A DNA stretch of 64,000 nucleotides. Source: Deltaproteobacteria bacterium. GTDB taxonomy: Bacteria > Desulfobacterota > Desulfuromonadia > Desulfuromonadales > BM103. Both the position numbers and the translations under genes were made by a program. The first letter of the stretch is position 1, and each line of letters begins with the position of its first letter. Shown in pieces: positions 3,414 through 62,447 of the stretch. The notes under the pieces are model-generated. The model made no database searches, was not told where the DNA came from, and worked only from the letters and a program-made list of their open reading frames with translations. The DNA is taken from contig JAJRRB010000078.1 in the NCBI GenBank assembly GCA_024279915.1, positions 62,001 through 126,000 on the forward strand, read 5' to 3'.

Positions 3414-4013
3414 TTATAATCGCAACCGGCCACACAAAATTTGTGCACCGATCAATCGTTGCCTAAGTTGGGTTGCATCCTGCAACTGACGCAGCAATCG
3501 CTGCTCTCGCCCCAGCAAATTGCCGAGTCGTGCAATTTTATATTGTTCGGCAAGTGGCGGTAGCAGGATGCGCAATTCATTGAATATCTGTCGCGGAATC
3601 ATCGGCGTACCAGCGCCGGTACGTACATTTCTTAATTGCGTTTGAAAAGGTTGCTGGTTAAGACACCAGACCAGATAGCCAGGATCGACTCCTTCTCGGG
3701 CACGAAGAATAAAGAAAGTGAGTGATGCGATTGAGCTTGCAGGAATGTCTTCGAGCAGTACGGCGTAGTTGCCGACACCGCGCGACATGAAGAGAATATC
3801 CCCCGGCACCAGGCGGTAATTATCGACCGACCGGGCCGGGGTGATCCTCAGTGCATGTTCTTCTTCATAACGATACGGTTCACCAGGGGTCAGATGTTTA
3901 GACATGATGACCTGATGCGTACCGCCCGGCTCGTGCGTCAGCGCGCCCTTGACCGAAAAGCCCGCCTGCACTTGTGCGCAGGTTTCTATTGTCACCATCT
4001 CTGCATTCATCAT
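3414..4013 (-). CDS. Half-size HsdS-like single target-recognition-domain protein
   Basis: This 199-residue protein resembles one half of an HsdS subunit. It has a single target-recognition domain (roughly residues 10-150, with 'LVPGDILFMSRGVGNYAVLL' and 'GTPMIPRQIFNELRILLPPLAEQ') followed by one conserved coiled-coil segment (LGNLLGREQRLLRQLQDATQLRQRL). Half-S proteins can dimerise to give symmetric recognition, can replace half of a full S subunit, or can be inactive partners. It lies directly upstream of hsdM, so the locus encodes two potential specificity polypeptides. An internal Met at residue 2 is an equally good start. Confidence 0.75.
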   Translation of the reverse strand: MMNAEMVTIETCAQVQAGFSVKGALTHEPGGTHQVIMSKHLTPGEPYRYEEEHALRITPARSVDNYRLVPGDILFMSRGVGNYAVLLEDIPASSIASLTFFILRAREGVDPGYLVWCLNQQPFQTQLRNVRTGAGTPMIPRQIFNELRILLPPLAEQYKIARLGNLLGREQRLLRQLQDATQLRQRLIGAQILCGRLRL

Positions 4014-4031
4014 GATTCCCGGCGATTCCGC

Positions 4032-4352
4032 TTAACCGTTACAAGTTGGGTTGTAGTTGTCGCTCAGATCTCGCTCAATCGCGAGACGGGTCTTTTCAAC
4101 ACTTTCAACCTTCACGGCAATATGTGTTTTGCCGTTGCGATTGAAACAGCCTTGCTTGTGATGGTCATCGAATCGTTCGCTCAGATCACCCGTTTGTCCA
4201 ACGTAGAGAACATCGTAGCCACCAGTTTGCTTCTTCTTAAGCACGAGATAAACACCTCCGAGGGCTTTAAACGTTGTGCCCCAAGGATAAACGCTGAACT
4301 CGTACTTCTTCCCTGATTTTCCTGTTGCCGTTACTTTCTCTGGCTCTGCCAT
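4032..4352 (-). CDS. GIY-YIG-like nuclease-fold protein heading the R-M operon
   Basis: The 106-residue product shows a degenerate GIY-YIG signature: GGVYLVL (for GIY) near residue 30, then LYVGQTGDLSERFDDH (for YIG plus the following helix with Arg and His), and a C-terminal ERDLSDNYNPTCN like the asparagine-bearing end of small GIY-YIG proteins. I chose the ATG at 4352 because AAGGAGGATTAG lies 5 nt upstream; an upstream in-frame start would add 34 poorly supported residues. It ends 18 bp before the half-HsdS gene and is probably the first gene of the operon. Whether it cuts DNA or only binds it is unknown. Confidence 0.7.
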   Translation of the reverse strand: MAEPEKVTATGKSGKKYEFSVYPWGTTFKALGGVYLVLKKKQTGGYDVLYVGQTGDLSERFDDHHKQGCFNRNGKTHIAVKVESVEKTRLAIERDLSDNYNPTCNG

Positions 4353-4445
4353 AACTAATCCTCCTTGAAGGATTACGACAGGCTTGACCTGAGACAGCAA
4401 GCAAAGTACGTTAACGGTTCCTACACCACGCGACTTTAACTGCAT

Positions 4446-4507
4446 ACAGGCCATGCCTGTCCGGTTGAGGTTGCGAAAAACCTCGTGCCCTGTGCATGGG
4501 GTTTTTC
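4446..4507 (-). ncRNA. Switch-like leader: two mutually exclusive hairpins plus a third stem
   Basis: Read on the minus strand, GAAAAACC (4507-4500) pairs perfectly with GGTTTTTC (4482-4475). The 3' part of that second arm is also the 5' arm of GAGGTT-TTTCGC-AACCTC (4484-4467), so the two stems cannot coexist. A third stem, ACAGGC-ATG-GCCTGT (4460-4446), follows. Overlapping alternatives like this are typical of attenuators, riboswitches and trans-RNA targets. I do not recognise it as a known class. Confidence 0.4.
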
Positions 4508-4517
4508 AATTTACGGA

Positions 4518-4546
4518 AGAGTATCAGCTCTACTTGTGTTTGTCAA
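4518..4546 (-). promoter_or_regulatory. Candidate promoter of the R-M operon
   Basis: Minus strand TTGACA (4546-4541), 17-bp spacer, TACTCT (4523-4518). The -10 is weak. It would produce a leader of about 160 nt before the GIY-YIG gene. Confidence 0.45.
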
Positions 4547-4731
4547 GAGCTCTTATTTATTTTTGTGGGGATGACTGACAGTATTCAAGAGGCAATTAAA
4601 TTCACCACACAACAGGGCTAGCAAACCTTATACTGTGGGATATGCTTGCAAAACTGTAATTTTAGAGGATGATTAGCTGTGGCAGATCAAATAATAGAAT
4701 GTTCGCCATTTCAACCAGGGAGATTACTACT

Positions 4732-18675: not shown

Positions 18676-19292
18676 ATGAACAAGTTCTTTTGGATGTTGT
18701 GCTGTGCTGCTCTGGTGCTTGTTGCATGTGCTGAAAAAAAACCGAAGTTCAGAGTGTCTGGAAAGATGAAACCAAGGTAGGCAAGATCAACAAGGTCTTT
18801 GTCCTTGCGGTCGTTCAGGATCCAGCCATTCGCCGCTCGGTCGAATATGGCATTGTCGACATCCTTAATAAGGAAACCCTTCGAGCCATACCAACTCTCG
18901 ATTCATTCCCGAACATTGACGATATTGATAAATCCCTTGCCCATAAAATGATGCAAGAGTATGGCATAGATAGTGTCCTGCTGATCCGTCTTATCGACCG
19001 TAACGTGGAAAAAACCTACGTCAGTGGGACATCGTACTACGATGGTTTCTATGGCAACCGCTATGCGGGAGGATGGCACAATTATTATGGGCGTGGTTAT
19101 AATGTTTTCAGAACTCCGGGGTATGTCATTGAAAAGTACATTTCCACGGTAGAGACGGTAATCTTCGATATCGCCACGGACAAGGTTCGTTGGTCTACGG
19201 TGACTACAACCAAGGAGAATATAGTCTCCAAGGCTATAGAATCCTATCTCAAAACCATTGATACCTCCCTGACAGATAGCAAGCTCTTCTGA
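18676..19292 (+). pseudogene. Envelope lipoprotein gene split by a one-base loss in an A-run
   Basis: ATG 18676 (AAGGGAG upstream) opens a lipoprotein signal with lipobox LVAC, then A8 at 18733-18740 shifts the frame, and a TAG follows 13 codons later. In the neighbouring frame the protein resumes directly after the A-run (TEVQSVWKDE, then KVFVLAVVQDPAIRRSVEYGIVDILNK) and continues to 19292. One added A gives a single 205-residue lipoprotein. The body, with a Tyr/Gly-rich loop (YYDGFYGNRYAGGWHNYYGRGY) and ISTVETVIFDIATDKVRW, resembles DUF4136-like lipoproteins. A8/A9 could also permit transcriptional slippage. Confidence 0.7.
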
Positions 19293-19294
19293 TA

Positions 19295-19332
19295 ATAATG
19301 GCCACCTGGTTCATGTACCAGGTGGCCATTAT
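19295..19332. terminator. Perfect 16-bp stem bidirectional terminator
   Basis: ATAATGGCCACCTGGT (19295-19310) is repeated exactly inverted at 19317-19332 with a 6-nt loop. It lies between two convergent genes. Its ATGGCCAC core recurs in other hairpins of the window. Confidence 0.75.
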
Positions 19333-26573: not shown

Positions 26574-26900
26574 GTAGGCAAAATTATCGAGTAAATCAGA
26601 ATAGATACAACGCCCTTTGATTTTAGCGAAATTTTTACTTTTTTATTCTAGCTAAATTTGTTAGAGTGCCGCTGTCGCGGCGTCTAAACTATACGTCATA
26701 ACAGTGTCTCTGCAGTCGGTATTCGTTGATAATGATCCCGTTGATTTTTGTACAAAGACGTCTTATAGTTAACCGAATCAGTCATAAATGTTTGGCTTGT
26801 TACTGAAATCAGTGACAAGCCTCTTCTTTTTTACGCAACATGAGTTAGGATTACATCGGTGGAAGAGTCAATCTTCCGCAAACCTCAGGGGAGTCTCACC
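26574..26900. other. 327-bp region between the hydrogenase operon and pckA
   Basis: No gene is seen. The left part is very AT-rich (26600-26680). The right part carries the pckA promoter and an early terminator, listed separately. There is no obvious terminator directly after the cytochrome gene. Confidence 0.5.
26741..26835 (+). promoter_or_regulatory. pckA promoter followed at once by an intrinsic terminator (candidate attenuator)
   Basis: TTGATT (26741-26746), 17-bp spacer, TATAGT (26764-26769) gives a start near 26776. Only about 18 nt later the hairpin GGCTTGTTACTG-AAAT-CAGTGACAAGCC (26794-26821; one wobble pair) and a T-rich tract follow, 80 bp before pckA. Most transcripts would stop there unless the hairpin is prevented. 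ATCAGT occurs on both sides of the 5' arm, so an alternative pairing is possible. Confidence 0.55.
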
Positions 26901-43641: not shown

Positions 43642-43671
43642 ATGGCCACTCGCTAGCAACCGGGTGGCCAT
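43642..43671 (+). terminator. Terminator after the LolA-like gene
   Basis: ATGGCCAC (43642-43649) pairs with GTGGCCAT (43664-43671), followed by AATTGTTTTT. It shares its stem core with the hairpins at 19295, 60449 and 62007. Confidence 0.7.
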
Positions 43672-43691: not shown

Positions 43692-43719
43692 TTGACATGT
43701 CTGACTAAAAGAGTAATCT
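43692..43719 (+). promoter_or_regulatory. Promoter of small RNA copy 1
   Basis: TTGACA (43692-43697) with a 16-bp spacer to TAATCT (43714-43719). The same promoter text (TTGACATrTCTkAC, then AGTAA) precedes copy 2 at 61.9 kb. Confidence 0.65.
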
Positions 43720-43725
43720 ATAGAC

Positions 43726-43816
43726 AACAGAAACAGACCACTTCATTTTTACCTCCTAAGAACAAAGCGAAACCCATTTGCCTCACAGTCCCCTCCTGGC
43801 TGTGGGGCTTTTTTTT
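43726..43816 (+). ncRNA. Small RNA copy 1 with anti-Shine-Dalgarno elements
   Basis: About 90 nt from promoter to terminator, no open frame. Conserved with the copy at 61862-61952: CTTCAT, TACCTCCTAAGA (43750-43761), GAAACCC, then the terminator stem GCCTCACAG / CTGTGGGGC (43780-43808) with loop TCCCCTCCTGG and eight T. Both ACCUCCU and the loop CCCCUCC are complementary to ribosome-binding sites (GGAGG). The distance from the -35 box to ACCTCC is 59 nt in both copies. It is probably a trans-acting regulator of translation. Confidence 0.7.
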
Positions 43817-60214: not shown

Positions 60215-60370
60215 CTACTGAACGAACTTAGCCCGTCCCAGCTTTTTTCTGTTTAATAATTCAATGTCACGTATAATCTCCCAACCTTCTGACTCTGTGA
60301 TACTGGCTATTTGATCATCAACCAATTTGGCTTGTGACTTCAGTACAACTACTAATTGCTCGCTTAGCAT
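60215..60370 (-). CDS. 51-residue hypothetical protein
   Basis: MLSEQLVVVLKSQAKLVDDQ, then IASITESEGWEIIRDIELLNRKKLGRAKFVQ, ending with TAG. GGAGGCAAAT directly before the ATG supports translation. It is mostly helical and soluble. No family recognised; island gene. Confidence 0.6.
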   Translation of the reverse strand: MLSEQLVVVLKSQAKLVDDQIASITESEGWEIIRDIELLNRKKLGRAKFVQ

Positions 60371-60616
60371 ATTTGCCTCCATTTGTCTTCTATTGCCCAG
60401 ACTATACCATTTTAGTCAGGATTGCAGCAAGGAAATGGAAAAAGCGAAATGGCCACCAAGGATCGAACCCTGCTGGCCATAATTTTGTAAATTAAAGAGT
60501 TTCCTAAATAATCTCTATCAATAAGAAGCCGCTTTTTCTCTCACAAGTCGTGACTAATAAAAACTCAGAAAGAATCGCAGAAGCGTCACGCGAGAAGCAT
60601 CTGCAATCGATGTTTC
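60371..60616. other. Short intergenic stretch with a repeated hairpin
   Basis: Apart from the hairpin repeat at 60449-60480 nothing is recognised. The hairpin probably ends the minus-strand methyltransferase transcript. Confidence 0.4.
60449..60480 (-). repeat. Repeated hairpin (copy 1 of the long form)
   Basis: ATGGCCACCAAGGATCGAAC-CCTG-CTGGCCAT, a 7-bp stem ATGGCCA / TGGCCAT. It is identical at 31 of 32 positions to 62007-62038. On the minus strand it is followed by TTCGCTTTTT. Confidence 0.65.
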
Positions 60617-61861: not shown

Positions 61862-61952
61862 AAAAAAAGCCCCACAGGCCAGGAGGGGGTCTGTGGGGCA
61901 ACGGGTTTTGGGTTTCTCTTAGGAGGTAGAACATGAAGAATCATGTTCTGGT
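61862..61952 (-). ncRNA. Small RNA copy 2 with anti-Shine-Dalgarno elements
   Basis: Minus-strand homologue of 43726-43816: CTTCAT, CTACCTCCTAAGAG (61929-61916), AAACCC, terminator stem GCCCCACAG / CTGTGGGGC (61899-61869) with loop ACCCCCTCCTGGC and seven T. Its promoter is TTGACA (61986-61981) with TAAGGT (61964-61959). The stem is perfect here, with C-G where copy 1 has U-G at one position, which keeps the pairing and supports a functional RNA. Confidence 0.7.
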
Positions 61953-61958
61953 AATGAA

Positions 61959-61986
61959 ACCTTACTATTCAGGTAAGATATGTCAA
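61959..61986 (-). promoter_or_regulatory. Promoter of small RNA copy 2
   Basis: TTGACATATCTTACC, then GAATAGTAAGGT; aligned base by base with the promoter of copy 1, with the -35 box 59 nt from ACCTCC in both. Confidence 0.6.
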
Positions 61987-62006: not shown

Positions 62007-62038
62007 ATGGCCACCAAGGATCGAACCCTGGTGGCCAT
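62007..62038. repeat. Repeated hairpin (copy 2 of the long form)
   Basis: ATGGCCACC (62007-62015) and GGTGGCCAT (62030-62038) form a perfect 9-bp stem with a 14-nt loop AAGGATCGAACCCT. TTGTTTTAG follows on the plus strand. It lies directly upstream of the small RNA promoter. Confidence 0.65.
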
Positions 62039-62447
62039 TGTTTTAGTTTCCCAAATGTCTACTGCATTTTTAGGAGACTGTGAAATTGACAAAATTGCGA
62101 AAGTCTTACTGGTCCTGACATATAGGTGTTCATCAGCATTCAATTTTGACCCACCATCGGCAGGTGGGGCTCATTGGCTAGAAATGGCCTAACTCTCCAC
62201 CACAACAACAGAAGTCAGGTTCTGGACGGGTCAAAGTTCGACGCCGATCTGTCCTCTAAGTAGGTCATTTTTGCATGCCTGTCAACATCCTGTTGTCTTC
62301 AAGCCCAAAGGGATGCACCAGAAAACGTTTGACCGGATAAGAAGTCAGCTATATGCAATTGAAGAAGTAATTGACACGCATCTGTATTTTCTTTTTTCTC
62401 GGTTATCGTGACCTAATGAAAATAGATGCACTGAAAAGGCGTCAAGA

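Follow-up and report, generated by a model that had tools for sequence, protein, structure and literature searches.

FsrA is controlled by Fur, CcsR carries an anti-Shine-Dalgarno motif, and LhrC pairs with Shine-Dalgarno regions. In the passages of PMC9410917 that deal with them, the iron-sparing RNAs IsrR of Staphylococcus and FsrA of Bacillus bind Shine-Dalgarno regions through C-rich regions in an iron-related control, and IsrR is placed under Fur. The alphaproteobacterial ar14 or cuckoo RNAs are present in several copies per genome and carry anti-Shine-Dalgarno motifs, according to sections of PMC3927594 and PMC10746234, and CcsR, described in PMC10253847, is likewise an alphaproteobacterial multi-copy RNA. 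LhrC of Listeria is a multicopy small RNA (PMC4132741), and RyhB is described in PMC11475020 as a small RNA that is tied to iron and Fe-S homeostasis, works with Hfq and is repressed by Fe-Fur.

Here, we will focus on two units found in a window of 64,000 nucleotides (the whole stretch of DNA that was analysed) from a bacterium of the Desulfuromonadales. They are members of a many-copy family of predicted small bacterial RNA genes, a family apparently without earlier description. Its closest relatives in mode are IsrR, FsrA and the alphaproteobacterial anti-Shine-Dalgarno RNAs, but it can be filed under none of them. It would share with IsrR and FsrA a C-rich, Shine-Dalgarno-binding mode and a link to iron, as judged from their published descriptions; those two are under Fur, whereas the family here has an IscR-like box and many copies. 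The cuckoo or ar14 RNAs have several hairpins, with CCUCCUCCC in the loop of every one, whereas in the RNAs described here a single CCUCCU precedes the terminator, whose loop holds a single CCUCC; neither motif of the two window copies is CCUCCUCCC, and the Rfam ar14 model gives 16.5 bits for copy 2, against a threshold of 58.8, and nothing for copy 1. A mark of the CcsR/CIN1 locus is cotranscription with a DUF1127 gene; each copy kept in our analysis has its own promoter and terminator. The proposed Fe-S link and the probable use of Hfq recall RyhB, from which the family differs by the Fe-Fur repression of the former and by the lack of an Rfam match at threshold, and for LhrC the best Rfam score in ten loci of the family is 33 bits against a threshold of 110. 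Membership of a known RNA family was rejected, since no Rfam family reached threshold in any locus set searched (the window, the surroundings of both copies, ten other loci and seven loci of a second class described below), in line with the original prediction, which knew of no described family in this bacterial group. A literature search, with most subscription papers outside its reach, found no description of this RNA family and no iron- or cluster-responsive small RNA described in this order.

The original prediction had proposed twin small RNAs on opposite strands, and the observation as a whole is confirmed, while its interpretation is partly supported. The predicted RNA of copy 1 extends from a putative start at 43726 to 43816 (+), and that of copy 2, with a start set in the same way, covers 61862-61952 (-). 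Both have a common promoter, with a -35 box TTGACA (43692-43697 (+) and 61981-61986 (-)) and, at a spacing of 16 nt, a -10 box that is TAATCT in copy 1 (43714-43719 (+), assigned by position and conservation) and TAAGGT in copy 2 (61959-61964 (-)). The anti-Shine-Dalgarno motif TACCTCCTAAG lies at 43750-43760 (+) and 61918-61928 (-), and the announced distance of 59 nt from the -35 box is recovered when both ends are counted, the first T of TTGACA and the first T of the motif being 58 positions apart in both copies. Both units close with a GC hairpin, whose loop is C-rich, and a U tract, as had been described (43780-43816 (+), loop CCCCUCC; 61862-61899 (-), loop CCCCCUCC), and copy 2 has a 5' hairpin, GAACAUGAUUCUUCAUGUUC, at 61929-61948 (-). 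The motif was said to be unpaired; in the lowest-energy folds this is only roughly true, since in copy 1 CCUCC makes up the loop of a hairpin and is flanked by weakly paired nucleotides, and in copy 2 part of the motif lies in a 3-bp stem. Of its proposed mimicry of the 3' tail of 16S rRNA, the part that can be seen is CCUCCU. The flanking DNA, which was held to be unrelated, is so only in part. Indeed, a shared hairpin (GGCCAC...GTGGCC) is found just upstream of both copies: TGGCCAC...GTGGCCA at 43643-43670 (+) for copy 1, terminator-like and common to copy 2, and TGGCCACC...GGTGGCCA at 62008-62037 (-) for copy 2, where it belongs to a dispersed intergenic repeat that this copy adjoins. This repeat, the IscR-like operator, the further copies and the second class go beyond what was first noticed and come to light only with computational tools.

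The family is larger than this first observation, and the window units are two of six clear copies in their own genome. A DNA search with the whole unit found these six places and a few partial ones, the six having E-values from 3e-88 (the query itself) to 4e-12, far beyond chance. The 11-mer motif is by itself weak evidence: with at most 1 mismatch allowed, it matches twice in the window where 0.41 matches are expected, and 6 of 100 shuffles also reach 2. A first covariance model, made of the transcript only, without the promoter, was built from the six copies; in their own genome it recovered all six, as its construction implies, with scores of 97-111 bits, along with weaker matches. At E ≤ 0.01 it had matches in 75 of the 136 genomes of the order, with strong ones in genomes outside its training. 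Many of the weak matches could be C-rich terminators only, and the model was therefore rebuilt with the promoter included, with a cut-off of E ≤ 1e-5 and only 12 candidates scored per genome. This second model matched 49 of the 277 genomes of the class, all 49 of them in the order of the window, and it matched 19/22 genomes of the family and 11/11 of the genus. Genomes G015 and G017 carry at least 12 copies each, all 12 scored candidates having matched, and the first model finds 23 and 26 in them at E ≤ 0.01, remnants counted in. A terminator pattern gave 24 stretches in records titled Desulfuromonadales, Geobacteraceae, Deltaproteobacteria or, once, Proteobacteria, and carriage by viruses was set aside after one exact pattern had 0 matches in viral contigs. 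The proposal of a small RNA family with anti-Shine-Dalgarno motifs is thus upheld by both models, which found in related genomes of the order and class the conserved copies whose absence was to have spoken against it.

We then considered the anatomy of the unit across its copies. A set of 40 regions surrounding the better matches was searched together with the window and five own-genome loci, which gave 52 matches at E ≤ 0.001; these are the best-scoring matches and no random sample. Five of them were dropped before the promoter counts, L093:2169 having lost its promoter and L019, L067:2886, L007:1305 and L085:1742 being degenerate. TTGACA is found upstream of all 47 kept copies, even though the first model holds no promoter, and some positions of the spacer never vary, but these 47 promoters are related copies, so that the counts are not independent trials. 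The 5' part of the RNA contains CCUCC in 46/47 copies, at 58-62 nt from the -35 box in 44 of these 46, and CCUCC is also present in the terminator half of 38/47. Among 43 aligned copies, the two helices pair in 93.8% of cells, against 30-53% for slid controls, and 7 of the 15 pairs change on both sides, such compensatory changes being equalled in 0/500 shuffles.

The spacer of these promoters has the consensus ATAYCTGACnAAAwnRGTAAkATAT, which we take to resemble the IscR type-1 boxes. The small RNA promoter carries a putative operator that is like these boxes, a likeness that is new here; this type-1-like box overlapping the promoter is present at the level of the family and weaker in both window copies. 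A directional matrix scan first found no site of 9 or more at the own-genome isc operon. A symmetrised matrix, for which the small RNA operators were the only training set, was applied to the 1560 nt that precede the cysE-linked iscR in 23 loci, and a box containing TTGACA before cysE-iscR was the best site in 21 of them, the exceptions being L223, where a neighbouring site was best, and L220, where the best site was elsewhere; a CysE-like frame stands between box and iscR in 23/23 loci. The own-genome isc box (L137:3623-3647) scores 8.6, with the symmetrised matrix only, lies after a gene that ends at 3609 and just reaches the longest possible cysE frame (3646-4560), although cysE probably starts at a more internal position. 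Conversely, a matrix built from 20 iscR boxes put its best register on the operator in 44/47 small RNA promoters and scored at least 8 in 26 of the 47 and below 0 in 10, a result that is mildly circular since it was the first matrix that had served to choose the iscR boxes. In 1.2 Mb, 45 generic TTGACA-TAnnnT sites all stay below 8 in every register, and the background of a near-identical 21-box matrix is 11.7 positions per Mb at 8 and about 50 per Mb at 4. With the 20-box matrix, the operators of the window copies reach only 4.8 (ATGTCTGACTAAAAGAGTAATCTAT, 43697-43721 (+), copy 1) and 3.8 (ATATCTTACCTGAATAGTAAGGTTT, 61957-61981 (-), the weak one of copy 2). The iscRB box of Escherichia coli, which is printed in PMC12594620, is free of this matrix circularity; used alone, it finds its best register on the operator in 41/47 promoters, with at least 15 identities out of 25 in 35 of the 47 operators against 0.04% of positions, and it is best at the operator register in both window copies, with 17/25 identities in copy 1 and 13/25 in copy 2. 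A passage of the same source states that clustered IscR represses the isc promoter via type-1 sites.

Operator-like sites are also found away from the small RNAs. A pattern search in G000, G012 and G014 gave 30 matches, of which 9 fall on small RNA copies; the other 21 are near chance, as the reversed pattern gives 18, and the one pair of matches common to two genomes is inside a gene. A palindromic pattern applied to five sister-family genomes matched in 11 rows, which come down to 7 places, with 0 in controls. Two of these places are small RNA loci, a third precedes cysE-iscR (G062) and a fourth overlaps a coding frame (G089); the remaining three are near a thiol peroxidase-like gene (L204, in G074), a DUF1508/YegP-like gene (L202, in G048) and a ribosomal protein gene, respectively. 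In the window, a site at 26765 (-) scores 14.8 with the directional matrix, lies upstream of a phosphoenolpyruvate carboxykinase-like frame that begins near 26844 and may be due to chance; another, at 60399 (-), scores 11.4 and lies just after a copy of the dispersed intergenic repeat and upstream of a 55-aa frame (60215-60382), a small possible gene.

It is conceivable, though we hold it to be unlikely, that the anti-Shine-Dalgarno family is real and obeys a different regulator of the Rrf2 family whose operator is related, for instance a sensor of NO or of cysteine. The same box type can serve several Rrf2 proteins, 10 of the 47 small RNA operators have negative scores when read as IscR boxes, and a similar site (9.5 in the directional scan, 3 mismatches in the pattern) is found just upstream of another Rrf2-family gene at L131 (G000:C25:32321), a gene after which comes a frame that contains several CxxCH haem motifs. 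However, in most promoters the operator register is the best one for the iscR boxes and for the E. coli box alike, as seen above, and the seven loci of a second iscR-like gene (L231-L237) have no upstream site above 3.1.

The genomic setting bears on a further reading, for which we see still less chance, in which the units would be mainly repeat-borne elements that spread a promoter and a terminator, their RNA having little regulatory role. The copies are many and some have decayed, and copy 2 and others are located within or next to a dispersed repeat, with flanks that are conserved. This repeat, AAGTCACGACTTnnGAGAAGAAAA ... GGCCACCAGGGTTCGATCCTTGGTGGCC, is found in the window at 60448-60555 and 62007-62059 (-), and in a weaker form at 19270-19330 (+). 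Its copies cluster in one orientation: a rough pattern finds 25 of them in 1.2 Mb of G015, many in cassette-like clusters of the same orientation, but only 3 of the 25 are followed by the unit. Moreover, the flanks of other copies are unrelated, and in one case a neighbouring gene has been retained: copy 1 has a LolA-like gene on one side and sucD on the other (putative names), and a copy in G012 is likewise beside a LolA-like gene (63% identity), sucD not being found next to it. The operator, CCUCC and the helices are also conserved across genera.

The sister family harbours a second class of loci, with the same kind of promoter and C-rich terminator, an ACCUC(C/U) motif and a 5' hairpin mostly with GUUGUGGCAGGC, in whose helices 8 of the 18 pairs change on both sides. 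The model of this class has matches in 58/136 genomes, class-one loci among them, as the shared parts would give. A conserved GGCAGGC is seen in the hairpin loop of the second-class loci L181, L182, L184-L187, L193, L196, L198 and L199, and a decayed-looking relative is present in the own genome at L007:1305.

Finally, CAU stands 3-9 nt before CCUCC in 45/47 copies, so that the complement reads like a ribosome-binding site and a start codon, but it is highly improbable that the opposite strand is the working one, with a strong Shine-Dalgarno sequence and an ATG starting a short peptide or toxin gene of which the unit would be the antisense, since the length of the frame that would open at this ATG ranges from 3 to 88 aa (in one of the 45 copies there is no stop in the stretch read) and the promoter and terminator point the other way.

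We thus favour, as reasonably probable, the reading in which each unit is a stand-alone gene for a trans-acting anti-Shine-Dalgarno RNA of about 90 nt, probably Hfq-assisted and repressed by IscR while clusters are plentiful. The family, its conservation, its helices and the likeness of its operator to IscR boxes can all be read from the sequence, as can the presence of iscR and of hfq, Hfq being encoded in 11/11 genomes checked. [2Fe-2S]-IscR bound between the -35 and -10 boxes would be expected to repress the small RNA gene; when clusters are short, IscR would let go, and transcription of the many copies would set in alongside that of the operon made up of cysE, iscR, iscS and iscU, among others. 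CCUCC is complementary to Shine-Dalgarno sequences, and sequence and predicted fold leave the C-rich stretch free to pair with them. The RNA, probably with Hfq, would pair through UACCUCCUAAG, and perhaps through the C-rich loop of the terminator too, with Shine-Dalgarno regions, and would block the initiation of translation, plausibly that of proteins rich in iron-sulfur clusters or haem. Target prediction was run on 1085 genes of G015, with start sites from a crude gene caller. The ferredoxin-motif set (8 of these 1085 crudely called genes) is not favoured (p = 0.63), the CxxxCxxC set (9 of the 1085) gives p = 0.14, and the multihaem set (8 of the 1085) gives p = 0.034, with the reversed RNA at p = 0.041 and the residual after Shine-Dalgarno strength at p = 0.34. 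The strongest predicted pairing is with a 12-haem cytochrome, one anecdote among the 1085.

The bacteria of this order depend to a large extent on iron-sulfur proteins and on multihaem cytochromes. We tentatively infer, as a possibility that we would not yet put on an even footing with its opposite, an iron-sulfur-sparing response that would be run by IscR and not by Fur, in which many-copy anti-Shine-Dalgarno RNAs of two structural classes would be released on loss of [2Fe-2S]-IscR and would shut down the translation of cluster-rich and haem-rich proteins across an order that is rich in them. If this is true, an IscR-controlled anti-Shine-Dalgarno family would tie the cluster status of the cell directly to translation, and its many copies would make dosage and redundancy testable.
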